This document shows, piece after piece, positions 2 through 62,046 of a stretch of 64,000 nucleotides of DNA. Below the pieces are notes generated by a model. The model was not told the DNA's origin. It ran no database searches and saw only the letters and a list, made by a program, of their open reading frames with translations. A program made the translations under genes and the position numbers. Within the stretch, counting starts at the first letter, position 1; each line of letters begins with the position of its first letter. This stretch comes from Pontibacter arcticus (GTDB taxonomy: Bacteria; Bacteroidota; Bacteroidia; Cytophagales; Hymenobacteraceae): contig NZ_QMDV01000001.1 in assembly GCF_003284895.1 (NCBI RefSeq), positions 523,080 through 587,079 on the forward strand. The letters run 5' to 3'.

Positions 2-1621
2 AGTTTGGTGCTTCCGTTGGGTATCCAGAGCATCATCGGGTTTGTATCCAGCGGGCAGGTAACGGTATCGGTTGTAGTACTGATCAGCCTGATCGTGCTG
101 GCGCTTTTAATAGTGGGAGGCCTGCAGGTAATGCAACTTTGGCTAGTGGAGTATATGCAGCAACGCCTGTTTGCGCGCACCGCTTCCGATTTTGCGTACC
201 GTGTACCACGCCTGCAACCCGAAGCGCTGCGCAAGCACTATCCTCCCGAGCTGATGAACCGCTTTTTTGATGTTGTTACGGTGCAAAAGGGCCTTGCTAA
301 AATTCTGATAGACTTTTCGACGGCAGTCATACAGATCGTTTTCGGGTTGATCCTGCTTTCTTTTTATCATCCATACTTCATCGTTTTCGGTTTTATTTTA
401 ATCCTGACGCTAGGGCTTATTATCTGGCTGACAGGCGGCAAAGGCATCGAGACAAGTATAAAAGAGTCTACTTACAAGTATAAACTGGTTGCCTGGCTCC
501 AGGAAATGGCTCGCTCGCTCAGCACGTTTAAGCTGGTAGGACACACCAACCTGCCCATGGACCGCACCAATAATTATGTACAAAGCTACCTGAATGTCCG
601 GAAGAAACATTTCAGTATTCTAATGACGCAGTATTTCAGCTTTGTAGGGTTTAAGACGTTTATCACAGGCGGCTTGCTGGTGCTGGGTTGTGTGCTGGTG
701 GTGCAGCAGGAAATAAATATCGGGCAGTTTGTAGCTTCCGAGATCATTATCATCCTTATCATGACCGCTGTCGAAAAGATCATCATCAAATTGGATACAG
801 TATATGATGTATTAACCAGCCTCGACAAAATAGGGCATGTAACAGATTTACCTCTTGAACCAGAAGGCGGCTTCAACCTGGACGAATTAGCTTTGAATGG
901 CGGGCTAAGTATAACAGCCAGGAACCTGAGCTATAAATTTGAAAACGCTAAAAAAATGGCTTTGCAGGATATTAGCTTTACTATAAATCCTGCTGATCGT
1001 ATCTGTCTATCAGGGTTTGATAGCTCGGGCAAAAGCACACTCATTAGCCTGATGCTTGGGTTATTCCCGTCTTATGAAGGCAGCCTGGTATACAACGGCA
1101 TTTCGCTGCACGATCTGCATAAAGGCAACCTGCGCAGCCTGATTGGTGATAACATTTCGAATGAACAGGTTTTTGACGGCACATTGCTGGATAATATAAC
1201 GCTTGGCGCCGATTTACCTATACAGGATGTGTTATGGGCCATTGAACTGACGGGCTTATCAGAATTTGTACATACCCTGCCGGATGGCTTGCACGCTTAC
1301 CTGACCGGCGGCAGTATGCGGTTGCCAGGCAGCGTAGCCCGTAAAATAGTACTGGCCCGTAGCCTGGTGAAGCGCCCGAAACTCCTCATCATCGAAAACC
1401 TGTGGGCAGGCATGACCAAAAAGGAAAAGATAAATTTCTTCCGGCTGCTTGCAAGCCCGCAATTCGACTGGACCATTATTATTGTATCCAACGACAGGGA
1501 AGTAATGCAGTTGTGTACCCAGACCCTGGTGCTACAAGACGGCAATCAGGTAGCTTTTGGCCCGTACGAAGAACTAAAGCACCTTGCCATTTTACAAGAG
1601 TTAACCGATATAACAGCTTAA
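2..1621 (+). CDS. ABC exporter, permease plus ATPase, 5' truncated
   Basis: The membrane and ATP-binding subunit of a type I secretion-like exporter. The reading frame is open to the window edge, so the N-terminus is missing. Counting from the TTG at position 5, hydrophobic segments lie near residues 20-45, 105-140 and 215-255, and the nucleotide-binding domain runs from about 300 to 525. Walker A is intact (GFDSSGKS, about 337-344). The other ATPase motifs are changed: the signature reads LPGSV (440-444), the Walker B end reads LLIIEN where DE is usual, and the switch His is replaced in VSND (about 494-497). HlyD and TolC genes follow with 3-base and overlapping junctions, which supports a tripartite exporter. 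The substrate is unknown, and no peptidase domain is visible in the part present. Confidence 0.85.
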   Translation, partial: SLVLPLGIQSIIGFVSSGQVTVSVVVLISLIVLALLIVGGLQVMQLWLVEYMQQRLFARTASDFAYRVPRLQPEALRKHYPPELMNRFFDVVTVQKGLAKILIDFSTAVIQIVFGLILLSFYHPYFIVFGFILILTLGLIIWLTGGKGIETSIKESTYKYKLVAWLQEMARSLSTFKLVGHTNLPMDRTNNYVQSYLNVRKKHFSILMTQYFSFVGFKTFITGGLLVLGCVLVVQQEINIGQFVASEIIIILIMTAVEKIIIKLDTVYDVLTSLDKIGHVTDLPLEPEGGFNLDELALNGGLSITARNLSYKFENAKKMALQDISFTINPADRICLSGFDSSGKSTLISLMLGLFPSYEGSLVYNGISLHDLHKGNLRSLIGDNISNEQVFDGTLLDNITLGADLPIQDVLWAIELTGLSEFVHTLPDGLHAYLTGGSMRLPGSVARKIVLARSLVKRPKLLIIENLWAGMTKKEKINFFRLLASPQFDWTIIIVSNDREVMQLCTQTLVLQDGNQVAFGPYEELKHLAILQELTDITA

Positions 1622-1624
1622 CCT

Positions 1625-2983
1625 ATGGCACCCGAATTAAAAGGAACCGAACATATAAGCACGTCCCGTCCGGACATCATGCAGCAGGTGCAAACCCCGC
1701 GCTTCGGCCACAGAGTAACCTACTGGATCGGTGGTATATTTCTGGTCATTTTTCTTTGCCTGTTTCTGCCCTGGACGCAAAACATCCGGTCGCAGGGGGT
1801 GCTAACGGCACTTTCGCCAGAGGACAGGCCCCAGACATTGCAGGCCACTATTGCAGGCCGCATTGAACGCTGGCATGTGATGGAAGGCGCTTTCGTGAAA
1901 AAAGGAGATACCATTGCCAGCATTTCAGAGATCAAGGAAAAGTACATGGACCCCGATTTTCTGGCCCGTTTAGGCGAACAGGTAGATGCCAAGAAAGGAG
2001 CGGCACAGGCCACACAGAATAAAGCGGAAGCGATGCAGGAACAGATAAAAGCATTACAATCCGGCCTGGGTTTCAGCCTGCAGAAAGCACGCAATAAAAT
2101 AGAGCAAACCCGCCTTAAACTGCAAAGCGACAGCATAGATGTCGTGGCTCAGCGTACAGAATTGGCTATTGCCGAATCTCAGTTAGCCCGCCAAGAAAAC
2201 CTGTACAAACAAGGCCTGAAATCCCTGACAGAGTTGGAGCAGCGGCGCTTGAAACTGCAGGAAGCACAGGCAAAACTGTTATCGCTCACAAATAAGTATG
2301 ATGCCACGCGCGCCGAGCTTCAGAACACCCAAACTGAGCTCAGCTCTCTACGTGCAGAATATGCCGATAAAATTGCTAAGGCAGAAGCAGAGTTAAGTTC
2401 TACCCGTTCCTACATTTATGGCACCGAAGCCGAAGTAGCCAAACTGGAAAACGAGTACAGCAGCACCCAGATCCGCAGCCAGTATTACCAGATCGTAGCG
2501 CCGCAGGATGGCTTTGTCGTACAAACGCTTAAAGCAGGTATCGGCGAAACGATCAAAGAAGGCGAAGCGCTGGCTACTATAATGCCCGGCAACCCGCAAC
2601 TGGCCGCCGAGTTATACATTGATGCCCTCGATTTGCCGCTTATAGAGCGCGGCGATAAAGTCCGGCTCCAGTTTGAAGGATGGCCGGCGCTTGTATTTTC
2701 AGGATGGCCGGGCACCAGTTTCGGTACTTTTGGCGGCACAGTGGCCGTAATCGATAACACGGGCACCAACGGCAAATACCGCATGCTGGTTATACCTGAT
2801 AAGAGCAGCACTGCGTGGCCTTCAGCTTTGCGTGTTGGTTCGGGAGTGTATGGTTGGGCGATGCTAAGAACCGTGCCTATCTGGTATGAGATCTGGCGAC
2901 AGCTCAATAACTTCCCAGCAGATTATGTGGCCCCGGCAGAGAAAGGAAAAGGTGCAGCAAAACCACAGGAGGAGCAAAAGTGA
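1625..2983 (+). CDS. HlyD-family periplasmic adaptor (membrane fusion protein)
   Basis: Bridges the inner-membrane ABC exporter to the outer-membrane channel. The 452-residue protein has one N-terminal membrane helix (about 31-51). The first half of a lipoyl/barrel-sandwich domain follows (about 65-95, with IAGRIERWHV). A long Gln/Glu/Ala-rich coiled-coil hairpin spans about 105-285, and the second lipoyl half is about 288-322 (APQDGFV). A beta-barrel region then leads to a charged tail. ATG at 1625 lies 3 bases after the exporter stop, and the end overlaps the TolC-like start by 4 bases (GTGA), so the three genes are probably translationally coupled. The family assignment is secure; the cargo is not known. 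Confidence 0.9.
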   Translation: MAPELKGTEHISTSRPDIMQQVQTPRFGHRVTYWIGGIFLVIFLCLFLPWTQNIRSQGVLTALSPEDRPQTLQATIAGRIERWHVMEGAFVKKGDTIASISEIKEKYMDPDFLARLGEQVDAKKGAAQATQNKAEAMQEQIKALQSGLGFSLQKARNKIEQTRLKLQSDSIDVVAQRTELAIAESQLARQENLYKQGLKSLTELEQRRLKLQEAQAKLLSLTNKYDATRAELQNTQTELSSLRAEYADKIAKAEAELSSTRSYIYGTEAEVAKLENEYSSTQIRSQYYQIVAPQDGFVVQTLKAGIGETIKEGEALATIMPGNPQLAAELYIDALDLPLIERGDKVRLQFEGWPALVFSGWPGTSFGTFGGTVAVIDNTGTNGKYRMLVIPDKSSTAWPSALRVGSGVYGWAMLRTVPIWYEIWRQLNNFPADYVAPAEKGKGAAKPQEEQK

Positions 2984-4407
2984 TACGTTATTTCCATACT
3001 TTTTTCAGCTTGTTTATACTTTTGCTGGCCTGGCAGCCGCAGCTGCATGCCCAGGATACAGCACAGGTACTTACACTACAGGAGTTTCATAAAATCATAC
3101 TGGCACACCACCCGGTTGCTTCGCAGGCACAGTTGCTTACAGAGCAAGCCCGGCAGGAATTACGAATGGCCCGCGGCGCTTTTGACCCTGAGCTTAGCAG
3201 CAAACTCTACCGAAAAGAATTTGGCGGCAAAGAGTATTTTACAACCTGGGATAATACCCTGCGTGTGCCGCTTTGGTTTGGCCCGGTGTTAAAAGCCGGT
3301 TTCGAAAAAAACCAGGGCGAGTATCTCAACCCCGAAAACAGTATGCCCGCCGAAGGTCTGAGTTATGCCGGTATTTCGGTGCCGCTGGGCCAGGGGTTGT
3401 TTATTGATGAACGCAGAGCTACCGTACGGCAAGGACGGCTGTTGCAGGATGTTGCCGAAGTAGAACGCATAAAGCTTATAAACAAACTATTGCTCGAAGC
3501 GACCAAGGCTTACTGGGAATGGTGGGAGCAACACGCGACTGTAAAATTATACCAGGAATCCCTTGCGTTAGCTGATATCAGGCTGAAAGGTATAAACATG
3601 CGGGCCCGCGAAGGAGACCTTGCCGCCATTGATACACTGGAAGCACTAATGGCTGTGCAGGAACGCCAGCTGCAATTGCAACAGGCACAGCTTAACAATA
3701 CCAACAGCCGCCTGAAAGTAGCAGTATACTTGTGGACCGATAATGAAGTGCCCTTAGAGCTGCAGGATACCACCATTCCTGCTTCGCCAACCAATGTGCC
3801 TGTTGCTTTACAGCCTGATTCCTTAAACCAGCTACTGCAATTTGCCCGTAATAACCACCCCGAGCTCCGCAAACTAAACTTAAAGACAAGCCAGCTGGCA
3901 CTGGAGCAACGCTTTGCCGCAGATAAACTAAAACCCAAACTCAACATTGATTATAATGTATTGCAGCGCGATTTTGATGTAAATTCTGAGATAATAAATG
4001 AGCAATACCTCCGCAATAATTATAAGTTAGGGATGAGCTTTAGTCTGCCTTTGTTTCTGCGCGAGGAACGTGGCAAGCTACAACTTACTAAAGCTAAGCG
4101 GCAAGCTAACTTCTTAGAGTTAACACAAACAACCCGCGAGGTAGAGAATGCCATACAGGCCGCTTACAACGATTGGCTTACCCTGGAAGAGCAGATAAAA
4201 CTACAGCAGCAACTCGTAGCCAATGCACTTATACTTCGCAATGGCGAGGTAACCCGCTTCGAAAATGGTGAAAGCTCAGTATTTTTAATCAACTCCCGGG
4301 AGGTGAAGCACCTGGAGGCGCAGGTAAAGCTTTACGAGTTACAAACAAAATATGCCAAAGCGAAAACATACTTGTACTGGTCGGCTGGCGAGGTACCGAT
4401 CAGGTAA
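2980..4407 (+). CDS. TolC-like outer-membrane efflux protein
   Basis: Outer-membrane channel of the exporter operon. The 475-residue protein begins with a signal peptide (hydrophobic core about 8-20, cleavage probably after LHAQ near residue 25). Two outer-membrane efflux protein repeats, rich in long helices (about 170-250 and 380-465), follow. The start is a GTG overlapping the HlyD stop by 4 bases. The stop abuts the stop of the convergent TSUP gene with no spacer, leaving no obvious terminator between them. The length fits the TolC family. Confidence 0.9.
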   Translation: MIRYFHTFFSLFILLLAWQPQLHAQDTAQVLTLQEFHKIILAHHPVASQAQLLTEQARQELRMARGAFDPELSSKLYRKEFGGKEYFTTWDNTLRVPLWFGPVLKAGFEKNQGEYLNPENSMPAEGLSYAGISVPLGQGLFIDERRATVRQGRLLQDVAEVERIKLINKLLLEATKAYWEWWEQHATVKLYQESLALADIRLKGINMRAREGDLAAIDTLEALMAVQERQLQLQQAQLNNTNSRLKVAVYLWTDNEVPLELQDTTIPASPTNVPVALQPDSLNQLLQFARNNHPELRKLNLKTSQLALEQRFAADKLKPKLNIDYNVLQRDFDVNSEIINEQYLRNNYKLGMSFSLPLFLREERGKLQLTKAKRQANFLELTQTTREVENAIQAAYNDWLTLEEQIKLQQQLVANALILRNGEVTRFENGESSVFLINSREVKHLEAQVKLYELQTKYAKAKTYLYWSAGEVPIR

Positions 4408-5235
4408 TTACCCTAATTTACTAGCCCAATTCTGGATGGCGGTGCTTAGCTTCACAAAATCGCTGCCACCGGTGCCGTAGGTATCATAGGCAAACTTAAG
4501 AATGATGCCTGTTACCACCACCAGAAAAAGGGCCCGGACAAAACCTGTTCCTTTTTTTAGTGCCGTACGTGTTCCTAACTGCGAGCCGATAACGCTGCAG
4601 ATGGCCATCGGAATAGCTACTTCATAAAGTATAAATCCTTTGTAACCAAAGTATAAAAGTGCCGATAAATTGGTCGCCACATTCACTACTTTAGCCGCCG
4701 CCGAAGCTGCCAGGAAGTTAAACCCGAAAATCCCGATAAAGATAAAGATCAGGAAACTGCCTGTTCCGGGACCGAAAAAACCGTCGTAAAAGCCAATGGC
4801 AGCTCCAATCAGCAAACCATATAATTTTTCCTGAGAGTCGGATAGCTTAGGCGCATGCAACGACCCAAAATCTTTCCGGATAAACGTATAAATGGCTACC
4901 AGAATCAGCAGTACCAGGATAAGCGGTTTCAGGAGGCTGGCATCGAGGTGGCTGAGGGCGCGCGCGCCTAAAAACGAACAGATAAAAGCAGCCGCTGCAG
5001 CCGGAAGTATGGCCAGGTAATTTATTTTAACATTCCGGACATAGCGCACCATCGCTGAAGTTGTACCGGCAATGGAGGCCAGTTTACCTGTACCAAACAC
5101 AGTAGCGACCGGCACACCCGGCAGAAAAATAAGCAAAGCAGGCAACTGAATCAGGCCACCGCCCCCCACTACCGCATCAATAAAACCAGCCAGAAAAGCG
5201 AACAGGCACAAATACAGGATATTCTCCACTTCCAA
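4408..5235 (-). CDS. TSUP-family permease (TauE/SafE-like)
   Basis: Predicted membrane permease of the sulfite exporter TauE/SafE family. Members move sulfur oxyanions or small organic anions, but the substrate cannot be read from sequence. The 275-residue protein is almost entirely hydrophobic, with about eight membrane segments. It contains family-typical glycine-rich stretches: AGFIDAVVGGGGLIQ near residues 16-30, GTGKLASIAGTTSA near 48-61, and GFYDGFFGPGTGSF near 147-160. No ATG lies near the N-terminus, so the start is probably the TTG at 5235 or a GTG two codons later. It is monocistronic and convergent with the TolC-like gene. Confidence 0.85.
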   Translation of the reverse strand: MEVENILYLCLFAFLAGFIDAVVGGGGLIQLPALLIFLPGVPVATVFGTGKLASIAGTTSAMVRYVRNVKINYLAILPAAAAAFICSFLGARALSHLDASLLKPLILVLLILVAIYTFIRKDFGSLHAPKLSDSQEKLYGLLIGAAIGFYDGFFGPGTGSFLIFIFIGIFGFNFLAASAAAKVVNVATNLSALLYFGYKGFILYEVAIPMAICSVIGSQLGTRTALKKGTGFVRALFLVVVTGIILKFAYDTYGTGGSDFVKLSTAIQNWASKLG

Positions 5236-5413
5236 AGTATAGCTAAAAGTATAAACAGGCTAAAAAAGCGGCGCAAGTTAAGTGATTGTACTCGAAGTAT
5301 GGCACACTAACTAGCTGTTATTTTGAAGGATAGTATACTTGGAAGCTGAAAGAACATGATCTGTAATTCTTTAAAGCTTATATTTCGTTCGTGTCCATTC
5401 CATTTCCAAATAC

Positions 5414-5455
5414 TCGCCTCCAGAGGGATTAATTCATTACTACCTCTGGAGGCGA
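5414..5455. repeat. 13-bp perfect inverted repeat in an intergenic gap
   Basis: The 320-base gap 5236-5556 holds perfect 13-base arms TCGCCTCCAGAGG (5414-5426) and CCTCTGGAGGCGA (5443-5455) around a 16-base loop. No T-run follows on either strand, so it is not a classical terminator. It sits about 50 bases upstream of the candidate promoter at 5503-5533. It could be an operator or a small REP-like element. Confidence 0.6.
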
Positions 5456-5502
5456 TCTTGTATTCAAACTTTGATAAATTTAATTTTTCTTATAGAATAT
5501 CA

Positions 5503-5533
5503 TTGTAATACTATAGACGAATATATATATTTG
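5503..5533 (+). promoter_or_regulatory. Bacteroidota-type promoter for the barrel-protein gene
   Basis: TTG (5503-5505), a 20-base spacer, then TATATTTG (5526-5533). This fits the Bacteroidota primary sigma consensus TTTG-N19-TAnnTTTG. The -7 box ends 23 bases before the ATG at 5557. A prediction from pattern only. Confidence 0.5.
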
Positions 5534-5556
5534 CCACTTTAACCTTATAACTATTT

Positions 5557-6342: not shown

Positions 6343-6364
6343 GGATTCTGTTATTGTAACTTAC

Positions 6365-8059: not shown

Positions 8060-8063
8060 AATC

Positions 8064-24821: not shown

Positions 24822-24840
24822 AAAGTATAAATTATACTTT
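24822..24840. repeat. Palindromic pair of the AAGTATA word
   Basis: AAAGTATAA, one base, TTATACTTT: a 19-base palindrome between tdk and recO built entirely from two opposed copies of the window-wide word. Confidence 0.7.
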
Positions 24841-29664: not shown

Positions 29665-29705
29665 AACAGCCCGTTTATACTTGCGTAAAGTATAAACAGG
29701 CTGTT
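29665..29705. repeat. Hairpin built from opposed AAGTATA words
   Basis: 18-base arms (29665-29682, 29688-29705) with one mismatch and a 5-base loop; each arm holds TTTATACTT/AAGTATAAA. It lies after the MoxR stop and may act as a weak terminator. Confidence 0.65.
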
Positions 29706-43019: not shown

Positions 43020-45623
43020 ATGATAAATACGCTGATCGGGGATATTGGGCATGCCAGTGTGATCGTAGCTTTTGTAGCCGCCGTCGTATCCTCTTACGCT
43101 TATTTCATGGCTGCCCGTAACCGTACGGAAGCCTCCGGCGATACCAGCTGGCGCAACTTTGCACGCATTGCCTTTTATGTGCACAGTGCAGCCGTACTCC
43201 TGATAATTTTCAGCTTGTTCAATATCATCTACGAGCACCGTTACGAGTATTATTACGCCTGGAGCCACTCATCCAATCATTTACCGCTTCATTTCATGAT
43301 CTCCTGCTTCTGGGAAGGCCAGGAAGGCTCTTTCCTTCTCTGGATTTTCTGGCATGTAGTATTGGGTATTGCCCTGATCGGGTTTGGAAGAAAAAACAAA
43401 GTATGGGAAGCGCCGGTAATGGCGATGTTCTCTTTTGTACAGCTTTTCCTGACATCCATGATTTTGGGTGTGGTGATCGGTGATCTGAAGATTGGTTCTT
43501 CGCCGTTTATTCTGATGCGTGATTTCATGTCGGATGCACCGGTGTTTGCCATGGACCCGAACTTTGTGCCGCAGGATGGCACCGGCCTTAACCCGCTGTT
43601 GCAGAATTATTGGATGGTGATTCACCCTCCTACCCTGTTCCTGGGTTTTGCGGCTACACTGGTTCCGTTTGCTTTTGCGATGGCTGGTCTTTGGAAAGGT
43701 AAGTTTACCGAGTGGGTAAAACCTGCATTGCCCTGGACGCATTTTGCTGCCGTTACACTGGGGGTAGGTACTATTATGGGTGCTTACTGGGCTTACGAAA
43801 CACTGAACTTTGGTGGTTACTGGAACTGGGACCCGGTTGAAAACGCTGTTTACATTCCGTGGCTGGTACTGGTTGGTGCTATTCATACAATGGTGGCCTA
43901 CCGCCGCAGCAAGCAAGGTTTGCGTGCCAGCTTTATACTTGTCATCGCTACTTTCATACTTATACTTTATGCTACCTTCCTTACCCGAAGCGGTATTTTA
44001 GGGAACGCATCGGTACACTCTTTCACTGACTTAGGTTTATCCGGTCAGTTGTTTACGTACCTGGCTGCTTTTGCAGTAATGGCCGTTGCTTTGCTGATCT
44101 ACAGATGGAAGAAGATTCCGGCTACGCAGAAAGAGCTTTCTACTTACAACGCTGAGTTCTGGGTATTTATAGGTGCCGCTGTGCTTTGCCTGGCAGGTTT
44201 CCAGGTATTCGCAACCACATCTATCCCGGTGTATAACTCTTTTATGGGCTTTATCGGTTTCGAAACCAACATTGCCCTGCCAGCCGACCAGATTGAGCAC
44301 TACACGAAATTCCAGTTATGGGCTGGTGTAGCCATTGCCGTACTTACCGGTATAGGGCAGCTGCTCTGGTGGAAAAAAGCAGATAAACAAAGCTTTAAAG
44401 ATGCGATCACGATGCCTTTAATGCTGACGTTGTTGTTCTCAAGCTTGATTATCATCTTATCCAACAGGTTCGATATTTTTGACTTTAAGCTGGATAACCC
44501 GGTCTATATTACACTATTTGTAACGTCTTTATTTGCGGTGTTTGCTAACCTGAGCATCATACTTGGGTTACTGCACAAAAAGATCACCTTATCCGGTGGC
44601 GCTGTATCGCATATTGGTGTTGCCTTGATGTTGCTGGGTATTTTATTCTCGTCTGGTTACTCTAACATCATCTCTCAGAACAACTCCGGTTTGCTTTACT
44701 CGCGTGAGTTTTCGGATGAATTGAACCGCGATAACGTGTTACTGTGGCGCAACGAGGCTATCGACATGGACAAGTACAGTGTGAGCTACCGTGGCCAGTT
44801 TTTCGAAGTGAGCGATGTACCGGAATATGTGAGCAAAGAACTTATTTTCCGGACTGCGGATGAGTATATGGCTATTGCCCGCGGCGATATTAAAGTAGGC
44901 GATAAAGTATACTTTAAGACCGGCGATACCATCGAACTTCCTTCCCCGGAAAACACGTATTACCAACTTGAGTACAAAGAGCGCGAAGGCAACAACAGCT
45001 TTGTACTTTATCCGCGTGCGCAGGTAAACGAAAGTATGGGATTGCTGGCTTCTCCGGATATCAAGAGTTTTGCTACCAAAGACCTTTACACACACGTAAG
45101 CTCTATACCAGATCCGAACGAAGAAAAAGACTGGGGCGAACTGAAGGAGTATGACGTAGCCGCTGGCGATACCCTGATCATCAACGATTACATTGCCATC
45201 ATCAATGGTATCGAGCCTATCAAGCAGGTACCGGGTGTGCAAATGGCAGCCGGAGATGTAGCCGTACAGGCAGATATTAAAGTGATGGGCGAAAAGAAAA
45301 CATACCATGCCCACCCGATTTTCCTGATCAAAGACCAGATGGTTGGGCGATTGCCAGAAGAAGTAGAAGACCTTGGTCTGCGTATCACCTTCATGAATAT
45401 TGACCCTGAAAACAACCGTTTCAAGATTGGTGTTAACGCCACGCAAAAGGATTACGTGATTCTGAAAGCGATGGAAAAACCATTTGTAAACGTACTTTGG
45501 ATCGGTTCTATCATCATGTCAATTGGTTTTATTATGGCCATCTTCAGACGCAACGAAGAAGGAAATCCTAAACCTAAAAAAACCAGTAAGCCGCAAAGCA
45601 AACGCGAAGTACAGGCGGTTTAA
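43020..45623 (+). CDS. ccmF: Heme lyase CcmF/CcsA-type
   Basis: Large membrane protein that ligates heme to apocytochrome c. The 867-residue protein has some 13-15 membrane helices, a WWD domain (GGYWNWDPVENAVYIPWLVLVGAIHT, about 264-289), conserved histidines, and a long C-terminal periplasmic region (about 540-830). It ends with a basic tail rich in Lys/Pro. This is longer than proteobacterial CcmF (about 650) because of the periplasmic region. Last gene of the ccm cluster; no ccmG/ccmH follows. Confidence 0.93.
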   Translation: MINTLIGDIGHASVIVAFVAAVVSSYAYFMAARNRTEASGDTSWRNFARIAFYVHSAAVLLIIFSLFNIIYEHRYEYYYAWSHSSNHLPLHFMISCFWEGQEGSFLLWIFWHVVLGIALIGFGRKNKVWEAPVMAMFSFVQLFLTSMILGVVIGDLKIGSSPFILMRDFMSDAPVFAMDPNFVPQDGTGLNPLLQNYWMVIHPPTLFLGFAATLVPFAFAMAGLWKGKFTEWVKPALPWTHFAAVTLGVGTIMGAYWAYETLNFGGYWNWDPVENAVYIPWLVLVGAIHTMVAYRRSKQGLRASFILVIATFILILYATFLTRSGILGNASVHSFTDLGLSGQLFTYLAAFAVMAVALLIYRWKKIPATQKELSTYNAEFWVFIGAAVLCLAGFQVFATTSIPVYNSFMGFIGFETNIALPADQIEHYTKFQLWAGVAIAVLTGIGQLLWWKKADKQSFKDAITMPLMLTLLFSSLIIILSNRFDIFDFKLDNPVYITLFVTSLFAVFANLSIILGLLHKKITLSGGAVSHIGVALMLLGILFSSGYSNIISQNNSGLLYSREFSDELNRDNVLLWRNEAIDMDKYSVSYRGQFFEVSDVPEYVSKELIFRTADEYMAIARGDIKVGDKVYFKTGDTIELPSPENTYYQLEYKEREGNNSFVLYPRAQVNESMGLLASPDIKSFATKDLYTHVSSIPDPNEEKDWGELKEYDVAAGDTLIINDYIAIINGIEPIKQVPGVQMAAGDVAVQADIKVMGEKKTYHAHPIFLIKDQMVGRLPEEVEDLGLRITFMNIDPENNRFKIGVNATQKDYVILKAMEKPFVNVLWIGSIIMSIGFIMAIFRRNEEGNPKPKKTSKPQSKREVQAV

Positions 45624-53118: not shown

Positions 53119-54639
53119 ATGCAATCTGTTAAAATTAAATCCGCACTTATCTCTGTTTACTACAAAGACCGCCTCGAGCCGTTGGTAGAACTTCTGAAAC
53201 AACATAATGTAACCATCTATTCGACGGGTGGCACGCAAACGTTTTTAGAAGAGCAAGGCGCTGAAGTGGTAGCCGTAGAAGACCTGACCGCTTATCCGTC
53301 TATTTTTGGTGGCCGTGTAAAAACGCTGCACCCGAAAGTATTTGGTGGCATCCTGCACCGCCGCGACAACGACAGCGACCTGAACGAGCGCGAGAAGTAT
53401 GAAATTCCGCCGATTGACCTGGTAGTAGTAGACTTATATCCTTTTGAGGAAACGGTAGCATCGGGTGCTTCGGAAGCAGACGTGATAGAGAAGATTGACA
53501 TTGGTGGTATTTCGCTTATCCGTGCGGCAGCCAAAAATTTTAAAGATGTGCTGATCGTATCGTCGCGCAACCAGTACGATGAAGTGGTAGAACTTCTGAA
53601 AGCAAAAGATGGCGCCACGGATCTGGAAGACCGCAAGCAGTTTGCAGCCAAAGCCTTTAATGTGTCGTCGCATTACGATACCCACATTTTCAATTACATG
53701 AACGGCGATGAGAACGCTGGCTTCAAACAAAGTATACTCGAAAGTACACCGTTGCGCTACGGCGAAAACCCGCATCAGAAAGGTACTTTCTATGGTAAAC
53801 TGGATGAGTTGTTCGAGCAACTGAACGGCAAGCAGCTTTCTTACAACAACCTGGTAGATGTGGACGCAGCCGTTGCCCTGGGCGCTGAGTTTGAAGAACC
53901 TGCCGTAGCTATACTTAAACATACCAATGCCTGCGGTTGCGCCACCGGCGAAAGTATAAAAGAGGCCTATTTGAATGCACTATCTTCTGACCCGGTTTCG
54001 GCATTTGGCGGCGTTATCATCGCCAACAGAAGTATAGATTTAGGTACAGCCGAAGAACTGAACAAACTTTTCTTTGAAGTACTGATCGCCCCTGAATTTG
54101 ATGCCGATGCGCTGGAATTATTGAAGTCTAAAAAGAACCGCATCCTGTTAAAGCAAAAGCCGGTTGAGCTAAGCAAAAAGCAATTTAAAACCTTGCTGAA
54201 CGGCGTAATAGAGCAGGACAAAGACTTGCTAACTGAAACAGAAGCCGACTTTAAAACCGTAACCAAACGCGAGCCAACTGCTGAAGAACGCAAAGCGCTT
54301 GTATTTGCCGCTAAAGTTTGCAAGCACACCAAATCGAATACAATTATACTTGCAACCGATAAGATGATGTTCTCGAGCGGTGTAGGCCAGACCTCACGTG
54401 TGGATGCGTTGCGCCAAGCCATCGAAAAAGCGAAAAACTTCGGATTTGATATCAGCAAAACTGTGATGGCTTCGGATGCTTTCTTCCCGTTCCCGGATTG
54501 TGTGGAAATTGCCGACCAGGCAGGTATAAAAGCAGTGGTGCAGCCAGGCGGCTCTATTAAAGACCAGGACTCAATTAACTACTGCGATGCGCACAACATG
54601 GCGATGGTCATGACGGGCGTTCGCCATTTCAAACATTAA
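53119..54639 (+). CDS. purH: AICAR transformylase / IMP cyclohydrolase
   Basis: Bifunctional enzyme for the last two steps of IMP synthesis. 506 residues: N-terminal MGS-like cyclohydrolase domain (about 1-150; STGGTQTFLEEQGAEV, GRVKTLHPKVFGGIL) and C-terminal AICAR transformylase domain (about 195-506; LRYGENPHQKGTFY, ILKHTNACGCATG, VQPGGSIKDQDSINYCD). Full length with all motifs. Follows purN. Confidence 0.96.
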   Translation: MQSVKIKSALISVYYKDRLEPLVELLKQHNVTIYSTGGTQTFLEEQGAEVVAVEDLTAYPSIFGGRVKTLHPKVFGGILHRRDNDSDLNEREKYEIPPIDLVVVDLYPFEETVASGASEADVIEKIDIGGISLIRAAAKNFKDVLIVSSRNQYDEVVELLKAKDGATDLEDRKQFAAKAFNVSSHYDTHIFNYMNGDENAGFKQSILESTPLRYGENPHQKGTFYGKLDELFEQLNGKQLSYNNLVDVDAAVALGAEFEEPAVAILKHTNACGCATGESIKEAYLNALSSDPVSAFGGVIIANRSIDLGTAEELNKLFFEVLIAPEFDADALELLKSKKNRILLKQKPVELSKKQFKTLLNGVIEQDKDLLTETEADFKTVTKREPTAEERKALVFAAKVCKHTKSNTIILATDKMMFSSGVGQTSRVDALRQAIEKAKNFGFDISKTVMASDAFFPFPDCVEIADQAGIKAVVQPGGSIKDQDSINYCDAHNMAMVMTGVRHFKH

Positions 54640-54735
54640 TAAACAAGCCAGGCATTACATTGATTTTTAAGATGATGCACCGCTTTGCAAGTATAATTTA
54701 ATTAAGCTTTAAAGCAGTCTCTACCTGCAGTTTAT

Positions 54736-54771
54736 AAAAAAACCTGACTCCATACGATGTCAGGTTTTTTT
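54736..54771 (+). terminator. Terminator after purN-purH
   Basis: AAAAAAACCTGAC / GTCAGGTTTTTTT arms (54736-54748, 54759-54771), directly followed by TATACTTTT. Confidence 0.8.
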
Positions 54772-55044
54772 ATACTTTTGATTTACCCTATTTACTCACC
54801 TCAAAAGTACAAATTAGCTGTACATGCGGCTCCCTATCCAATTTTATACTTCAAAGTTGCGTTATAAAAGGGGCCAACGCCAGGTATAACCGTAACAACA
54901 GAAGAAATAAACTTTAAATGTTTAATACAGCCACGAACAACAGTATTATTTCCGCTGAATTTAACTAATTTTACCGTTAGCTTTTAGTTAGAAATATTAT
55001 ATATTTAAATATAAAGAGGCTTTACAGGCCTCATCCACTACAAA
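54772..55044. other. Intergenic region upstream of mreB
   Basis: About 270 AT-rich bases without a coding sequence, holding two TATACTT words and the unassigned mreB promoter. No convincing -7 box or RNA element was found. Together with the purH terminator the gap is about 405 bases. Confidence 0.4.
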
Positions 55045-56070: not shown

Positions 56071-56079
56071 TACAGGCAC

Positions 56080-56946
56080 ATGCGGAATCTTTTTGCATTT
56101 ATTTACCGGTTCCGTGCGTTCCTGCTGTTCGTTCTGCTAGAGGTGCTGTGCGTTTTCCTGATTGTGCGCTACAACACGTACCAGGGCGCAGCTTTCTTTA
56201 ACTCAGCTACAAAGTATGCAGGGCAGGTACTCGAGTTTCAGAGTGGTGTTACGGATTATTTCCGGTTGGCTTCCATTAACAATACGCTGGCGCGCGAAAA
56301 TGCATTGCTACGCGAAGAACTGCTGGATTTCAGGAAACAAAGTATAACAGACAGTACGCAAAGCCTGGATACAACCTATTATGCGTCTGCCGACACCCTG
56401 AAACAGTACCCATATCTGCTGCATGCTGGCCGTGTGATCAACAACTCGGTGCGCCGGACAAACAACTACCTGACGCTCTCGATCGGGGCGGCAGATGGCG
56501 TAAAGCCGGGCATGGGTGTAATTGCCTCTAACGGTACTGTAGGCCGCATCAAAACCGTTTCGGAAAAGTATGCAACTGTTACTTCTTTGCTACACTCGCA
56601 GTTACTGATCTCGGCTAAAATTAAAAAGAGCAACACCTTCGGCACCATTAAATGGACGGGTGGCAATTATCGCCTTGCCAACCTGGAGTACATTCCGCTA
56701 CACGTAAAACCCGCTAAAGGCGATACCATTGTAACAAGCGGCTTCAATACGGTATTCCCGGAGGGCATTATGGTAGGCACGATCAGCTCTGTAGAAAAGG
56801 AAATGGACAAAAGCTTTTATACCATAAAGGTGAAGCTGGCCGTTGATTTTGCACAGCTCTCCTACGTGTATGTAGTGGAAAACCCCTATAAAGCAGAACG
56901 GGATACGTTAGAACAAAACGCAGGTATACTTCCAGATGAACAGTAG
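56080..56946 (+). CDS. mreC: Rod shape-determining protein MreC
   Basis: Periplasmic scaffold of the elongasome. 288 residues with an N-terminal membrane helix (about 11-28), coiled coil (about 68-90) and a beta-rich MreC domain (about 105-270; SIGAADGVKPGMGVIASNGTVGRI). Probably activates PBP2. Its stop overlaps mreD by 11 bases. Confidence 0.93.
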   Translation: MRNLFAFIYRFRAFLLFVLLEVLCVFLIVRYNTYQGAAFFNSATKYAGQVLEFQSGVTDYFRLASINNTLARENALLREELLDFRKQSITDSTQSLDTTYYASADTLKQYPYLLHAGRVINNSVRRTNNYLTLSIGAADGVKPGMGVIASNGTVGRIKTVSEKYATVTSLLHSQLLISAKIKKSNTFGTIKWTGGNYRLANLEYIPLHVKPAKGDTIVTSGFNTVFPEGIMVGTISSVEKEMDKSFYTIKVKLAVDFAQLSYVYVVENPYKAERDTLEQNAGILPDEQ

Positions 56947-57463
56947 TTTCGGCATAAAATACATTGTACAGTTTATACTGTTTGTAGCGCTTCAGATTCT
57001 GCTGATGGATAATCTGGTGCTTTTCAGTACGGGTTTCTGCTTTATTTATGTGGCTTTTCTGTTGTTTCTGCCAATTGGTATAAACAAAGTATGGCTATTG
57101 TTTCTAGGGTTTCTGGTTGGGTTTACGGTGGATATTTTTTACGATACCATGGGCATTCATGCAGCTGCCAGTGTGCTGCTTGCTTATCTCAGAACACATC
57201 TTTTGAACCTTCTGACGCCACGTGATGGTTACGATACAAACGATGCAGCTAACATACACATAATGGGTTGGCGCTGGTACCTGGTTTATACGTTTACACT
57301 GCTGCTTTTTCATCATCTGGCGGTCTTCTTCCTGGAAACAATCAGCTTTGGAACCGTCTGGTATACGCTGTTAAAAGTTGTAGCAAGTACCTTGTTTACC
57401 GGCATCGTCCTGATTATTGTGCAACTGCTGTTCTTTTCATCCAAAAGGGCGAGTAGAACTTAA
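56936..57463 (+). CDS. mreD: Rod shape-determining protein MreD
   Basis: A 175-residue membrane protein with about five helices, position and hydropathy typical of MreD (short, poorly conserved): FGIKYIVQFILFVALQILLMDNL at the start. It lies in the elongasome order mreB-C-D and overlaps mreC by 11 bases. ATG at 56936; the pbp2 ATG follows the stop at once (57464). Confidence 0.88.
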   Translation: MNSSFGIKYIVQFILFVALQILLMDNLVLFSTGFCFIYVAFLLFLPIGINKVWLLFLGFLVGFTVDIFYDTMGIHAAASVLLAYLRTHLLNLLTPRDGYDTNDAANIHIMGWRWYLVYTFTLLLFHHLAVFFLETISFGTVWYTLLKVVASTLFTGIVLIIVQLLFFSSKRASRT

Positions 57464-59296
57464 ATGAATTATTTAGAGAACCGAAAATATATTATTCAGG
57501 GCATTTTTCTGATCGTAGGAATCGTGTTTGCCCTGCGCCTGTTTCACATTCAGGTAATTGATAGCAGTTACAAGCAAGCCGCTGAGACAAACGCGATCAA
57601 GTCCATTATCCAATATCCTTTCCGGGGTTTGATTTACGACCGCAACGGCCAGTTGATGGTGCAGAATACGCCCGTTTACGACCTGATGGTGATTCCGAAA
57701 GAAGTAAAGCAACTGGATACTTTACACCTGAGCCAGGTACTTCAGCTACCCCCCCTCGAAATCCGCGAGCGCCTGAAAAAAGCCCGTACTTTTTCGTATG
57801 TGCAGCCTTCCGCTTTTTACCAGAAACTAAGCACCGAAGAATTTGCACAGATACAAGGCAGCCTAATCGACTTTCCGGGGTTTTACATCAACGCCCGTAC
57901 GGCACGTGGTTATCCGCACCAGAGTTTATCGCACGCCTTGGGTTATATTGCTGAGATCAGCCCGAGGCAGCTCGAAGATTCCAGTTACGCGGGTTACCGC
58001 CCTGGCGATTATATCGGAAAAAGCGGCATCGAGCTGGAGTACGAGAAATTTCTGATGGGCAAGCGTGGCGTAAAGTATAAGATGGTGAACGTGCGCGGCA
58101 TCGAGAAAGGCCCTTTTAAAGGAGGAGCTTTTGATACGCTTTCGGTAGCCGGACAAAACCTGATCAGTACCATTGACCTGGATCTGCAAGCGTATGGAGA
58201 ATACCTGATGAACGGCGCAAAAGGCAGCATAGTAGCCATAGAGCCTGCTACCGGCGAAGTACTGGCCTATATCTCTGCCCCTTTCTACGACCCGAACCTG
58301 TTTACTGGCAAAGATTACGGCAAGAACTACATGAAGCTGCTGACTGACCCGGATAAGACCATGTTTAACCGCCCGATTATGGCGAGCAGCAACCCGCCCG
58401 GCTCTATCTTTAAAATGGCCCAGGCACTTGCTGCCTTACAGGAAGGCATTATTACGCCTGGCACTGGCTACCCTTGTAACCAGCGCCTTGTAAAATGTTC
58501 GCACGCACATACCCCGCCTTCCACACTAGCTATTGCCATCGAAGAGTCCTGTAATCCATACTTTTACCAGGTAATGCGGTCTATGGTTAACCAGGGTAAA
58601 TCCAAGAATATCTTTACAGATACTTCCATCGGCCTGAAAGAATGGCGGAAACATATTACCAGCTTTGGCTTTGGCACAAAACTAGGCATCGATCTTCCGA
58701 ACGAGAAGCAGGGTATCATAGCTTCTCCTGAGATGTATGATAAGATCTATGGCAAAAACCGCTGGAAATTCTCTACTATTTATTCGCTGAGTATAGGCCA
58801 GGGCGAACTAGGCGTTACGCCTCTGCAGATGGCCAATTTTATGGCCATTATTGCTAACCGGGGCTATTATGTGGCTCCGCATATTATCCGATCGGTTGGT
58901 GAAAACGGAAAGCCGCTGCCTGAGTATCTGAAAAAGAATTACACAACAGTAGACGCCAAACATTTTGCGCCTGTAGTAGATGGCATGGCTGCCGTAATAA
59001 CATCGGGTACAGGCAGAAACTCATCTTTAGCGCATATCGGCATTCAGGTATGTGGCAAAACCGGAACAGCGGAAAACCCACAGGGAAAAGACCACGCCGT
59101 ATTTGTAGCTTTCGCACCAAAGGATAATCCAAAAATTGCCATTGCAGTGTATGTAGAAAACGCTGGTTTCGGAGCGCAGTCTGCTGCCCCGATTGCCGGC
59201 CTGATGATGGAAAAATACCTTACTGATTCTATCTCTGCTAAAGTACAGTGGAAAGAAAAATGGGTATTAAGCCGCCAGTATTTGAATATTAAGTAA
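57464..59296 (+). CDS. mrdA: Penicillin-binding protein 2 (elongasome transpeptidase)
   Basis: Class B PBP that cross-links peptidoglycan during rod growth. The 610-residue protein has an N-terminal membrane helix (about 10-28), dimerisation domain (about 45-180) and transpeptidase domain. Active-site motifs are intact: SIFK with Ser314, SCN at 362-364, KTG at 532-534 (CGKTGTAENP). It lies directly between mreD and rodA. Confidence 0.95.
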   Translation: MNYLENRKYIIQGIFLIVGIVFALRLFHIQVIDSSYKQAAETNAIKSIIQYPFRGLIYDRNGQLMVQNTPVYDLMVIPKEVKQLDTLHLSQVLQLPPLEIRERLKKARTFSYVQPSAFYQKLSTEEFAQIQGSLIDFPGFYINARTARGYPHQSLSHALGYIAEISPRQLEDSSYAGYRPGDYIGKSGIELEYEKFLMGKRGVKYKMVNVRGIEKGPFKGGAFDTLSVAGQNLISTIDLDLQAYGEYLMNGAKGSIVAIEPATGEVLAYISAPFYDPNLFTGKDYGKNYMKLLTDPDKTMFNRPIMASSNPPGSIFKMAQALAALQEGIITPGTGYPCNQRLVKCSHAHTPPSTLAIAIEESCNPYFYQVMRSMVNQGKSKNIFTDTSIGLKEWRKHITSFGFGTKLGIDLPNEKQGIIASPEMYDKIYGKNRWKFSTIYSLSIGQGELGVTPLQMANFMAIIANRGYYVAPHIIRSVGENGKPLPEYLKKNYTTVDAKHFAPVVDGMAAVITSGTGRNSSLAHIGIQVCGKTGTAENPQGKDHAVFVAFAPKDNPKIAIAVYVENAGFGAQSAAPIAGLMMEKYLTDSISAKVQWKEKWVLSRQYLNIK

Positions 59297-59298
59297 GG

Positions 59299-60621
59299 AT
59301 GCCAGCAGAACCAACCATACCAAAGTATAAAATAGCGACGCGCAGCAGTAACCGCACATCGCGCAGTTTCCCCGTTCACATAGATTGGGTAACAATACTG
59401 CTATACTTCCTGTTAGTTGGCCTGGGCTGGATGAATATTTATGCCGCCGTTTACAGCCCCGATAATGTAGTAAACATCCTGAGTTTTGATATTAACTCCG
59501 GTAAGCAGCTTGTCTGGATCTCGGCAGCGGTGGTGCTCATTATTATACTTCTGGTGGTTGATTACAAAGTATACGAACACCTCGCCTACCCCATTTACGG
59601 CACCATTATTTTACTATTGCTGGTCACGCTGGTGGTTGCAAAACCGATTGCAGGTTCCAGGTCTTGGCTCGATCTGGGTGGCGGAATCAGGTTACAACCC
59701 GCCGAACTGGCTAAATTTGCGACAGCTTTAGCGCTTTCCAAATACCTGAGCAGCGTGAGCCTGCGCCAGCAAAAGTTAATGGACCAGGTTAAACTGGCTG
59801 CTATTACCCTGTTGCCGCCTGCTATTATCATACTTCAAAACGAAACAGGATCGGCGCTGGTGTTTGCCTCGTTCATACTTGCTTTCTTTAGAGAGGGTAT
59901 GTCGCCGCTTATACTTATTATCGGCGGAACGGCTGCGGCTATTTTTATACTTACGTTGCTGGTGCCCAAGCTCTACCTGATCATCGGTATTATACTTTTG
60001 ATGGGCGCTGCCGTGTGGCTGGATTACCGCCTGATGCGACGCATTAAAACCATGATCGCCATGCTGGGCGTTGTAATTGCGATGATCTTTAGTGTGGATT
60101 ACTTTGTAAACAGCATTCTGCAGCCACACCAGCAAAACCGTATCAAAGCACTTATAAACCCCGAAGCCGACCCGCTTGGCTATGGCTGGAACGTAACACA
60201 ATCCAAGATTGCAATTGGCTCCGGTGGCTTAATCGGGAAAGGCTTCCTGGAAGGTACACAAACCAAATTCGATTTCGTGCCCGAGCAAAGTACCGACTTT
60301 ATTTTTTGTACCATCGGCGAAGAACATGGCTGGGTGGGCAGCACCATCCTGATCGGTCTATTTCTGTTTCTGCTGATCCGGATTGTAAGTATAGCCGAGC
60401 GCCAGAAATCCGTTTTCGGCCGGACGTATGGCTATTGTGTAGCGTCTATTATCTTCTTCCATTTTGTAATTAATGTAGGCATGACAATCGGGCTGGCACC
60501 TGTGGTGGGTATTCCGCTGCCATTCTTTAGTTACGGGGGCTCGTCGTTGTGGTCGTTTACCATCCTGCTTTTTATCCTGATCGCTATCGATGCCAACCGC
60601 AGCCAGGACCTGTCACGCTAA
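59299..60621 (+). CDS. rodA: Rod-shape glycosyltransferase RodA (SEDS)
   Basis: SEDS-family peptidoglycan polymerase, partner of PBP2. The 440-residue membrane protein has about ten helices. The conserved regions SRSWLDLGGGIRLQPAELAKFATALALSKYL (about 121-151), SKIAIGSGGLIGKGFLEGTQTKFDFVPEQSTDFIFC (about 303-338) and VGIPLPFFSYGGSSLWSF (about 403-420) are present. It starts 2 bases after the pbp2 stop. Eight AAGTATA/TATACTT words fall in its first 1.1 kb, several encoding Ile-Leu. Confidence 0.95.
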   Translation: MPAEPTIPKYKIATRSSNRTSRSFPVHIDWVTILLYFLLVGLGWMNIYAAVYSPDNVVNILSFDINSGKQLVWISAAVVLIIILLVVDYKVYEHLAYPIYGTIILLLLVTLVVAKPIAGSRSWLDLGGGIRLQPAELAKFATALALSKYLSSVSLRQQKLMDQVKLAAITLLPPAIIILQNETGSALVFASFILAFFREGMSPLILIIGGTAAAIFILTLLVPKLYLIIGIILLMGAAVWLDYRLMRRIKTMIAMLGVVIAMIFSVDYFVNSILQPHQQNRIKALINPEADPLGYGWNVTQSKIAIGSGGLIGKGFLEGTQTKFDFVPEQSTDFIFCTIGEEHGWVGSTILIGLFLFLLIRIVSIAERQKSVFGRTYGYCVASIIFFHFVINVGMTIGLAPVVGIPLPFFSYGGSSLWSFTILLFILIAIDANRSQDLSR

Positions 60622-60637
60622 CGTATAAATTTATACT

Positions 60638-61750
60638 TTACTTTTTATACCTGATAATAGAAGTATAGGTTAAGGCGCTGATAGTTTGCCCTGTTTTGGG
60701 ATTCACAAAAATTACTTTGCCCTGCTGTTTTAGTATCTGGTAAGCAACTTTGTAATTATCACGGCTGTAGTTTGTGCCAACATTGTCTTTTTCGTAGATG
60801 CTTTGCAAGGTCTTGTTGTTATAAACACTTGCTTTCTGCAAAATGGTATCTACCAGGTTTACAACCGAATACATATAATACTCCTGAAAAAGCCCCATTT
60901 GATTTTGCTGTAGGTTTGCTCCAAATAATGGCACAGCATCCTCCTGAAACTCAGTATACCCTAACATCAGCTCTTTCAGACTTGTATAAGCGGCATCTGT
61001 TTTCACAGCAAGGAGTAGGTATTGGTTGGTCTGCTTTTTATCAAATGCGTTAATCCTGAACTCAAATAAAGTATAGCCTTTGGCTGCGAATACTGTTTTA
61101 AACGTAGCCAATGCAAAAGCTTCTCTTTTTGCAGCATCTCGTACCGTTTTATAATACGCTTTGATATCGGTTAGTTTTTCGCTGAATAACTCCTGTAGCT
61201 GGGGACTTGGTTTTTTGGTTTTAACAGCGGCATTTATACTTTCAAAATCGAAAAGCATGACCAGGTCAGCGTTCCATCGCTGACCCAGCCCAAGTATAAA
61301 TTCCTGCGCCACCACATCCTGAAAAGGGTTCAGGAAAGCTAAAGCAGGCAAACCAGTACCTATTTGCTCTGGCAACAACTCCTCATTTTCTGCTGCCGGA
61401 AAGCGGATAGGCTTATGAACCAGTGCATCATAATAAGGCAGGTTATTTATACTTTCTTCCAATTCGGCTAATGTTGTTTCTGCCGGATCATGAAATATAA
61501 CCTGTACTGCCTTATTCAGATCGAAGTTGGTGCCGGAGCTCCTGAAAATGGTATCCAGAATTTTGAAAAGGGCAGCCGGTCCCTGCCCTGCACTCAAATC
61601 AAAGTATAAAATGGCTGGGCTTAACCTTTCTCTCTGGTTCGATAATATGACTTTGCACCAAACCACAAAATACTGGCTCAAGATCTCTGTTTTTATGGCA
61701 GATAAGCTTCTTTCTTTTTTGAAAAAGTCATTGGGTTTAATGTCGGCCAT
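60638..61750 (-). CDS. TcmP-like (three-Cys-motif partner) protein
   Basis: A 370-residue protein resembling the three-Cys-motif partner family: ERSLSAIKTEILSQYFVVWCKVILSNQRE at the N-terminus, AILYFDLSAGQGPA (about 46-59, a SAM-methyltransferase-like glycine loop), and LPALAFLNPFQDVVAQEFI in the middle. In this family that region usually reads DPYG. Start ATG at 61748-61750. TcmP genes normally sit beside a three-Cys-motif protein; no such partner is present within this window, so it is an orphan. Function unproved; the assignment is moderate. Confidence 0.55.
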   Translation of the reverse strand: MADIKPNDFFKKERSLSAIKTEILSQYFVVWCKVILSNQRERLSPAILYFDLSAGQGPAALFKILDTIFRSSGTNFDLNKAVQVIFHDPAETTLAELEESINNLPYYDALVHKPIRFPAAENEELLPEQIGTGLPALAFLNPFQDVVAQEFILGLGQRWNADLVMLFDFESINAAVKTKKPSPQLQELFSEKLTDIKAYYKTVRDAAKREAFALATFKTVFAAKGYTLFEFRINAFDKKQTNQYLLLAVKTDAAYTSLKELMLGYTEFQEDAVPLFGANLQQNQMGLFQEYYMYSVVNLVDTILQKASVYNNKTLQSIYEKDNVGTNYSRDNYKVAYQILKQQGKVIFVNPKTGQTISALTYTSIIRYKK

Positions 61751-62046
61751 GCAATTTAAAAGTATACGCTCTTGCTTCCGGTACAAAATTAAGGATATAA
61801 ATTTTATAGCCTTTTGGTTACACCGAAGCCTGTTTTTACTGCGCTGCCAACTAAATAGTTTATGCTAAACTAATAAACCGGTGCTGCCCAACAACCTGCC
61901 ATCGTTACCCGTACTGAAACTGCATGTTGCAACCTCATAAACAGGAAGCTTTATAATTAAGCTAAAGGCTAAATTTACATTAGATTTTAGTTCAATAAAG
62001 CAGCTGTACTTTCATCGTTGCTTCACCCAATTTTACTTAAAACATA

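Follow-up and report, generated by a model that had tools for sequence, protein, structure and literature searches.

The stretch of DNA investigated in this study, termed the window, comprises 64,000 bp of Pontibacter arcticus contig NZ_QMDV01000001.1 (G000:C1:523080-587079, GC 0.461, in a genome of 3.77 Mb in 7 contigs). It is distinguished by the frequent occurrence of a short word, AAGTATA with its reverse complement TATACTT, which an initial annotation had interpreted either as a DNA uptake sequence or as a different recognition word spread over the genome, of the kind of HIP1. The word listing contains 144 copies on both strands between positions 454 and 61766 (AAGTATA 69 and TATACTT 75 times on the plus strand), whereas 16.1 would be expected under a second-order Markov model built on the same sequence. 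This count agrees with the roughly 140 copies and the near-even orientation described in the annotation, which had put the expectation at about 11 copies. With a z-score of 31.9, AAGTATA is the top-scoring 7-mer of the window, and its copies lie about 430 bp apart on average. The first is located at 454-460 on the plus strand within AAGTATAAAA, with a second copy at 476-482, and the last at 61760-61766 on the plus strand, while five reside in the gene on the plus strand that the annotation had named purH (53119-54639; copies at 53730, 53910, 53952, 54030 and 54345). On both window strands, the 8-mer AAGTATAA, which defines the AAGTATA dialect described below, is found 102 times compared to 4.9 expected, AAGTATGG 30 times compared to 3.2 and AAAGTATAAA 38 times compared to 0.7. 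As previously described, AAGTATG is the sole frequent variant of the last base (60 copies on both strands compared to 12.1), with AAGTATC and AAGTATT both found twice on the plus strand. Outside of positions -1 to +8, the flanks of the window copies are nearly devoid of information, thus indicating that the word is not carried by a longer repeat.

The same excess is found throughout the genome, where AAGTATAA occurs 2747 times in forward and 2846 times in reverse orientation (together 5593), compared to 62 and 72 times (together 134) for its reversed control. In a sample of 0.78 Mb, AAGTATA ranks first among 7-mers with 1889 copies versus 200 expected. The word thus remains an outlier beyond the window, and the observation of its excess is confirmed.

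A pronounced feature of this word is its variation within the genus, which was defined from whole-genome counts in 50 Pontibacter genomes, with 1000 copies of a dialect's 8-mer as a cut of our own choice. This number is reached for some dialect in 41 of the 50 genomes. AAGTATAA exceeds it in 24 genomes (1201-7030 copies, the weakest being G007, which is 87% complete), AGGTATAG, representing the AGGTATA dialect, in 12 genomes (2823-5128 copies, with AAGTATAA at 276-453) and AACTATAG, representing the AACTATA dialect, in seven (2002-8208 copies). Three mixed genomes, G045, G047 and G061, pass for both AACTATAG and AAGTATAA, and G063 lies just below this class with 907 copies of AACTATAG beside 6128 of AAGTATAA. 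A fourth dialect, TATATAR, initially inferred from 40 kb of G057, was afterwards confirmed genome-wide, with TATATAGC found 1673 times in this genome compared to 218 for its control and 73-255 times in the other 49. Pontibacter thus contains at least four dialects, one of them in a single genome, which share TATA followed by a purine and differ in the preceding AAG, AGG, AAC or TA. No word is detected at the cut of 1000 copies in nine genomes (G040, G046, G053, G055, G056, G058, G002, G059 and G024). Weaker excess words, GGTAGAG, GGTATRG and GGGGTAT, were observed in G056 (L193, L251), G059 (L256) and P. sp. E15-1 (L031) and may constitute further dialects, those of G056 (AGGTAGAG-like) and G059 (GGTATRG-like) being derived from samples of 20-40 kb. 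As a separate observation, AGGTATAG recurs every 66 bp or so across 2.5 kb at G020:C1:1944098-1946633, which is probably a CRISPR array.

The core of the word is strict. In P. arcticus, the exact 8-mer reaches 19.4 times its expectation compared to 0.5-2.9 times for variants with one base altered in positions 1-6, with equivalent values of 35.2 compared to 0-6.6 in G017 and 62.6 compared to 0-9.8 in G018. At position 7, G is tolerated above C or T (4.3-6.4) and at position 8, T is disfavoured (1.5-2.0) in the three dialects. Such dialect-specific, non-palindromic words with a strict core would suit an enzyme of type III or of the bacteriophage exclusion (BREX) type, and could accordingly serve as a self-mark that is placed by a dialect-specific methyltransferase and read during uptake or restriction. 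In Campylobacter, a methylated self-mark guiding uptake has been described. We regard a methylated mark as improbable, since restriction words are usually avoided rather than amplified, and a mark guiding uptake would in any case be a form of uptake sequence and not its opposite.

The distribution of the word with respect to genes, which were called by a longest-open-reading-frame heuristic and not by a gene finder, reveals 92 genic, 49 intergenic and three border-spanning copies among the 144 in the window, consistent with the earlier description of copies both within and between genes. In a 400-kb sample from other stretches of the same genome, AAGTATA was found 522 times in genes, compared to a mean of 82.8 and a maximum of 97 in 20 runs in which synonymous codons were shuffled within each gene. 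This excess, which extends over all six frames, does not originate from codon bias, which the initial annotation had named, along with dinucleotide bias, as a possible source. Similarly, AGGTATA occurs 300 times in genes of G017 compared to a shuffle mean of 31.9 and AACTATA 308 times in genes of G018 compared to 37.9. Words of a foreign dialect range from the shuffle mean to about twice this value, as in case of AAGTATA in G018 (60 compared to 29.9) and AGGTATA in P. arcticus (84 compared to 54.0) and its window (23 compared to 9.4). In the 400-kb sample, the density of AAGTATA is 5.28/kb between and 1.57/kb within genes, where 262 copies reside on the same and 260 on the opposite strand. With GC skew as a proxy for the leading strand, the orientation is close to even, with ratios in favour of the G-rich strand of 936:760 in P. 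arcticus, 148:139 in G001 and 350:296 in G054.

Within intergenic regions, the density is highest between convergent and lowest between divergent genes, with values per kb for convergent, co-directional and divergent gaps of 8.95, 6.87 and 4.57 in P. arcticus, 5.84, 4.01 and 2.93 in G017 and 11.33, 7.00 and 6.22 in G018 and G054 taken together. Since the opposite placement would be expected for a promoter or operator, such a role was rejected in all three dialects tested, as the annotation had anticipated. The same placement bears on the proposal that the word is bound by a chromosome-organizing or regulatory protein, for which its strict core and its chromosome-wide presence on both strands would be suitable properties. 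Together with the 522 genic copies in 400 kb and the lack of an obvious benefit from respelling sites by the thousand in one genus, it renders this proposal highly improbable.

Closely spaced copies also occur as inverted pairs. In the window, TATACTT at 29676-29682 and AAGTATA at 29688-29694, with matching flanks (GTTTATACTT...AAGTATAAAC), are predicted from reading of the letters to form the stem of a hairpin (29676-29694). The word listing contains another pair with AAGTATA at 24823-24829 and TATACTT at 24833-24839 (24823-24839), and two overlapping copies (44905-44911 on the plus and 44908-44914 on the minus strand) constitute the palindromic double word AAGTATACTT (44905-44914) within the open reading frame 43020-45623. 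In P. arcticus, the orientation TATACTT..AAGTATA is found in 18 of 47 close pairs in convergent and 21 of 82 in co-directional gaps, with about one quarter expected at random, and in G018 and G054, inverted close pairs account for 8 of 54 in convergent gaps. The sample of G018 shows, as an independent observation, a very frequent fused palindrome, AACTATAGTT, with 154 copies on both strands compared to 0.6 expected (L113-L122, L181, L189, L248).

The word distinguishes the chromosome from a mobile element. Among 39 sampled stretches of the P. arcticus genome, the 35 of chromosomal origin contain 1.30-3.25 words/kb, the lowest value being found in a ribosomal-protein cluster that was named by eye from protein starts. 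In contrast, three stretches of contig C6, whose genes encode a MobA/VirD2-like relaxase, TraG, TraM and a ParA-like ATPase and thus mark a conjugative element, show densities of 0.25-0.60/kb, close to the Markov expectation of 0.26/kb. The small contig C7, which lacks ordinary genes and is probably an rRNA fragment, is also word-poor and was not counted as evidence. C6 further contains two copies of a gene block that comprises at least seven members (504, 748, 274, 869, 425, 336 and 855 aa; L225, L227). An abundance on the chromosome with near-background levels on a conjugative element would equally be a property of a Chi-like signal, which directs recombination by RecBCD or AddAB in break repair and protects self DNA, and the slight excess on the G-rich strand in P. 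arcticus points in the same direction. However, Chi is strongly co-oriented with replication, in contrast to the near-even ratios in G001 and G054 and the equal division of genic copies between both strands. Moreover, two or three genome-wide respellings and additional losses in a single genus would, as far as we are aware, be unusual for such a signal, and we thus consider it an unlikely explanation.

The relationship between the dialects was investigated with purH as an anchor, for which 80 named orthologous loci were fetched. The best 37 of these include 36 from Pontibacter and one from Botryobacter. At a cut of 0.9/kb, the 37 loci comprise 12 with AAGTATA, 12 with AGGTATA, three with AACTATA, two with AAGTATA and AACTATA, and eight with none, illustrating that many AAGTATA-poor relatives are instead rich in one of the other words. 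By these loci, P. mucosus and P. flavimaris belong to the AAGTATA dialect, P. lucknowensis and P. indicus to AGGTATA and P. populi and P. burrus to AACTATA. For the same locus, a tree with 38 rows and 8495 columns, from which word-bearing columns were removed and which does not include the TATATAR genome, places the window among Pontibacter. The tree originates from a quick search with branch support by the Shimodaira-Hasegawa-like approximate likelihood ratio test (SH-aLRT) alone, several of its forks are not resolved, 23 of its 38 rows are flagged for composition and the Botryobacter row covers 24% of the columns. It contains the AGGTATA loci as one clade of 12 and the AACTATA loci, including the mixed genomes, as one clade of five (both with an SH-aLRT of 100%), which are surrounded by AAGTATA rows. 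The first branches, Botryobacter and P. beigongshangensis, are devoid of the word, as are two further groups, one consisting of P. harenae and P. silvestris (100) and the other of P. ummariensis, E15-1, P. pamirensis and P. diazotrophicus (90). In this arrangement, AGGTATA and AACTATA each appear to have arisen once, and AAGTATA would be ancestral in most of the genus, followed by two changes in spelling and two presumed losses. In P. harenae, AAGTATA is found at 0.65/kb, and species that were read as losses might thus contain a weak or unrecognized word.

A comparison of orthologous sites in pairwise alignments of the purH loci, in which species pairs share history and are not independent, illustrates how the dialects relate to each other. 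AAGTATA sites of one species contain the same word in 1366 of 2972 ungapped cases and AGGTATA in 20 when aligned to species of the same dialect, whereas in AGGTATA species, AGGTATA is found in 190 and AAGTATA in 69 of about 2330 ungapped cases. Conversely, AGGTATA sites contain AAGTATA in 190 and AGGTATA in 129 cases in AAGTATA species. AACTATA sites contain AAGTATA in 39 and AACTATA in 30 cases in AAGTATA species, and AGGTATA in 15 and AACTATA in none in AGGTATA species. In species without a word, AAGTATA is retained in 164 of about 1580 cases, with AGGTATA found in 14. Since control words were few and thus varied widely, with a same-word rate between 0 and 0.63, we relied on this contrast between dialects, which shows that orthologous sites often switch to the local spelling.

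Within a dialect, the identity of the word at the purH loci exceeds that of its flanks, with values of 0.790 compared to 0.731 for genic and 0.794 compared to 0.682 for intergenic sites in case of AAGTATA, 0.884 compared to 0.792 and 0.858 compared to 0.761 in case of AGGTATA and, for few pairs, 0.781 compared to 0.744 and 0.868 compared to 0.712 in case of AACTATA. Towards AGGTATA species, the identity of genic AAGTATA sites drops below that of their flanks (0.616 compared to 0.725), as it does towards species without a word (0.654 compared to 0.707), whereas intergenic sites are about level in both cases (0.660 compared to 0.645 and 0.658 compared to 0.646). The word is thus a conserved island mainly where it constitutes the local spelling. 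This conservation conflicts with the assumption that a bias in mutation or repair, such as mismatch or short-patch repair, would continuously create the word with no receptor involved. The bias would be compatible with the fact that sites arise mainly by substitution, as gaps are found in 4-12% of AAGTATA sites, depending on the group, compared to 5-6% of random 7-mers, and thus remain a minority even where they reach about twice the random value. However, one-mismatch variants in P. arcticus stay far below the 19-fold excess of the exact word, and a target of eight bases would hardly be reached from several directions by a simple bias, which makes this explanation very unlikely.

Outside of Pontibacter, the word is not enriched to a comparable extent. 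Across 150 genomes from five further genera of this family, counts of AAGTATAA mostly lie near the control, with a maximum of about 2.4 times in genus g17, and in 14 genomes from other families of the order, AAAGTATAA does not rise above its control. In the five genera, no equally strong word was detected in one genome each (46-80 kb), where the top z-scores do not exceed 12.6 (7-mers) and 13.0 (8-mers), compared to 7-mer scores of 33-65 in Pontibacter samples of 80 kb. Among 43 further fetched loci, the 34 above 12 kb reach a top z-score of 8.3 at most. The statement of the annotation that no uptake word had been described for this lineage is in line with the papers listed in literature searches that do not cover most subscription journals and preprints, none of which describes such a word for Pontibacter or Bacteroidota.

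Genes for the processing of incoming DNA are widespread in the genus. Matches to ComEC and to DprA are found in all 50 genomes, and a ComEA-like protein of about 315 residues, containing three helix-hairpin-helix (HHH) stretches and an N-terminal hydrophobic segment, is among the matches listed in each of them. Transformation genes, whose presence had been proposed as a check, are thus in place, also in genomes without a word. A type IV pilin as receptor is not supported, as no convincing ATPase of a type IV pilus or type II secretion system (T2SS) was identified in the 50 genomes, where T2SSE matches cover about 38-66 of 370 positions and barely pass the cut-off in three; the search did not include the pilin families themselves. 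The short P-loop matches were consequently rejected as evidence for a pilus ATPase. In genome G022, comEC contains one stop (C1 near 2771217), dprA two stops (4158575) and the HHH gene, which lies in three pieces, three stops (2078296), whereas no stop is found in the nine remaining matched genes of the HHH neighbourhood (L261). The joint breakage of comEC, dprA and the HHH gene suggests a common function in natural transformation, as if a transformation unit had been lost in this genome. Stops in comEC and dprA of G009 (C76:160505, C13:17460) and a disrupted comEC frame in G018 (C23, L189) may be real or reflect assembly errors. Gene neighbourhoods were compared for comEC in nine and for the HHH gene in 20 genomes, with P. 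arcticus included in both. An alpha/beta hydrolase next to the HHH gene, which is unmatched in seven loci (six from no-word genomes, one with 10.5 kb only, and that of G057), is present in three other genomes without a word and is an unlikely receptor. DUF5689 was equally discarded as a receptor marker, as it is found in 22 of 50 genomes in two architectures with a patchy distribution that differs from that of the word. Its neighbours in G018 are genes which by eye resemble SusC and SusD.

Collectively, the clade-specific dialects, the switching at orthologous sites, the conservation within dialects and the near-background density on the conjugative element support the interpretation of the initial annotation, and we thus propose that AAGTATA(R) is probably the local dialect of a Pontibacter DNA uptake sequence. 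In the underlying process, a putative competence receptor at the surface or in the periplasm would bind the TATA-R-based word in extracellular double-stranded DNA and favour the import of DNA from Pontibacter, which would be passed through the inner membrane by ComEC and recombined into the chromosome by DprA and RecA. If fragments containing the word had a higher rate of uptake and recombination, chance mutations that bring a site closer to it would spread by molecular drive, which would account for thousands of copies on both strands that are tolerated in genes and densest under low constraint. A shift in the specificity of the receptor would cause sites to drift to a new spelling, and its loss would lead to a decay of the words. 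Binding, uptake and drive are what we infer from the sequences. With somewhat less confidence, although still favouring it over its negation, we propose a system that is independent of those of Neisseriaceae and Pasteurellaceae, operates with a putative sequence-specific DNA receptor and no type IV pilus and has undergone at least two, probably three, changes of password within one genus, with G045, G047 and G061 representing genomes midway.

Several observations weigh against an uptake sequence. Switching is incomplete in AACTATA species, where AAGTATA sites contain AAGTATA in 55 and AACTATA in 37 cases, and AGGTATA sites contain AGGTATA in 49 and AACTATA in 15. The presence of the core machinery does not follow that of the word, as the nine no-word genomes retain ComEC and DprA free of stops. 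Conversely, G022 still carries 2537 copies of AAGTATAA, and its comparison with G001 over 40 kb shows no clear decay of the word, while G009, with its stops in comEC and dprA, carries 5041 copies of AGGTATAG. No receptor candidate was found upon examination of DUF5689 and of the neighbours of comEC and HHH genes, inverted pairs, which would be expected to be frequent at terminators, do not appear dominant among the close pairs of P. arcticus, G018 and G054, and the slight excess on the G-rich strand is not predicted. The near-background density in acquired DNA was observed for one mobile element alone, of which 60 kb of the 139-kb contig were analysed, and none of the papers listed in the searches concerns competence in Pontibacter.

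The described properties resemble those of known systems in several respects. In Neisseriaceae, dialects of the DNA uptake sequence (DUS) share a core, follow phylogeny and are recognized by the receptor ComP, permissive and intergenic sites are favoured, recently acquired DNA is word-poor and two dialects may coexist in one genome, as in Simonsiella, according to two studies (PMC3630211, PMC2397512). In Pontibacter, the word is similarly short and present in many copies, its dialects share a core and follow phylogeny, intergenic sites are preferred, genomes with two dialects exist and acquired DNA, in a single element, is word-poor. In contrast to Neisseriaceae, it is found in a different phylum and has an unrelated sequence, and its inverted pairs do not appear dominant. 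As a type IV pilus ATPase is not recognizable, a route via a ComP-like pilin would not be expected. The uptake signal sequence (USS) of Pasteurellaceae is distributed genome-wide on both strands, begins with AAGT, contains an A+T-rich flank and depends on pilus-based machinery. All but the last feature are shared by the AAGTATA word, whose genus contains four dialects and no detected pilus-based machinery, and the resemblance of AAGTGCGGT and AAGTATAAA between Pasteurellaceae and Pontibacter is taken as coincidence. The HIP1 of cyanobacteria is a highly iterated short palindrome within and between genes. Although the Pontibacter word is iterated and placed in a similar manner, it differs from its reverse complement and varies in spelling between dialects, and the HIP1-like alternative of the annotation thus fits less well. 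A system from the same phylum is that of Riemerella anatipestifer, a naturally transformable member of Bacteroidota, which is described to require ComEC, DprA, an HHH protein and proteins of the envelope that do not resemble known machinery (PMC8459023); one of its transformation proteins contains a DUF5689 domain. Pontibacter shares the phylum and the three former proteins; in contrast, the term 'uptake sequence' is not used in that study and DUF5689 is no marker of the Pontibacter word. The route of DNA across the outer membrane of Bacteroidota is still speculative (PMC8459023). If the proposed interpretation is correct, self-recognizing DNA uptake would have evolved a further time, here in Bacteroidota. 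With about 50 species in four spellings, of which some have mixed genomes and others have apparently lost the word, biased-uptake drive and shifts in specificity would become directly testable, and the dialects would offer a comparative handle on the receptor, whose gene should differ between dialects in the part that binds DNA.

Besides the described word, the window contains an excess of the palindrome TCCGGA and its extension TTCCGGA, which on both strands occur 70 and 34 times compared to 22 and 8.2 expected. TTCCGGA is also found 64 times compared to 19.8 in the sister genus g17, and the palindrome or its extension is in excess in G040 (L252), G065 (L286-L289) and P. silvestris (L007). 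A further palindrome of the window, GGTCGCGACC, has a count of four on both strands, corresponding to two places, compared to an expectation near 0.

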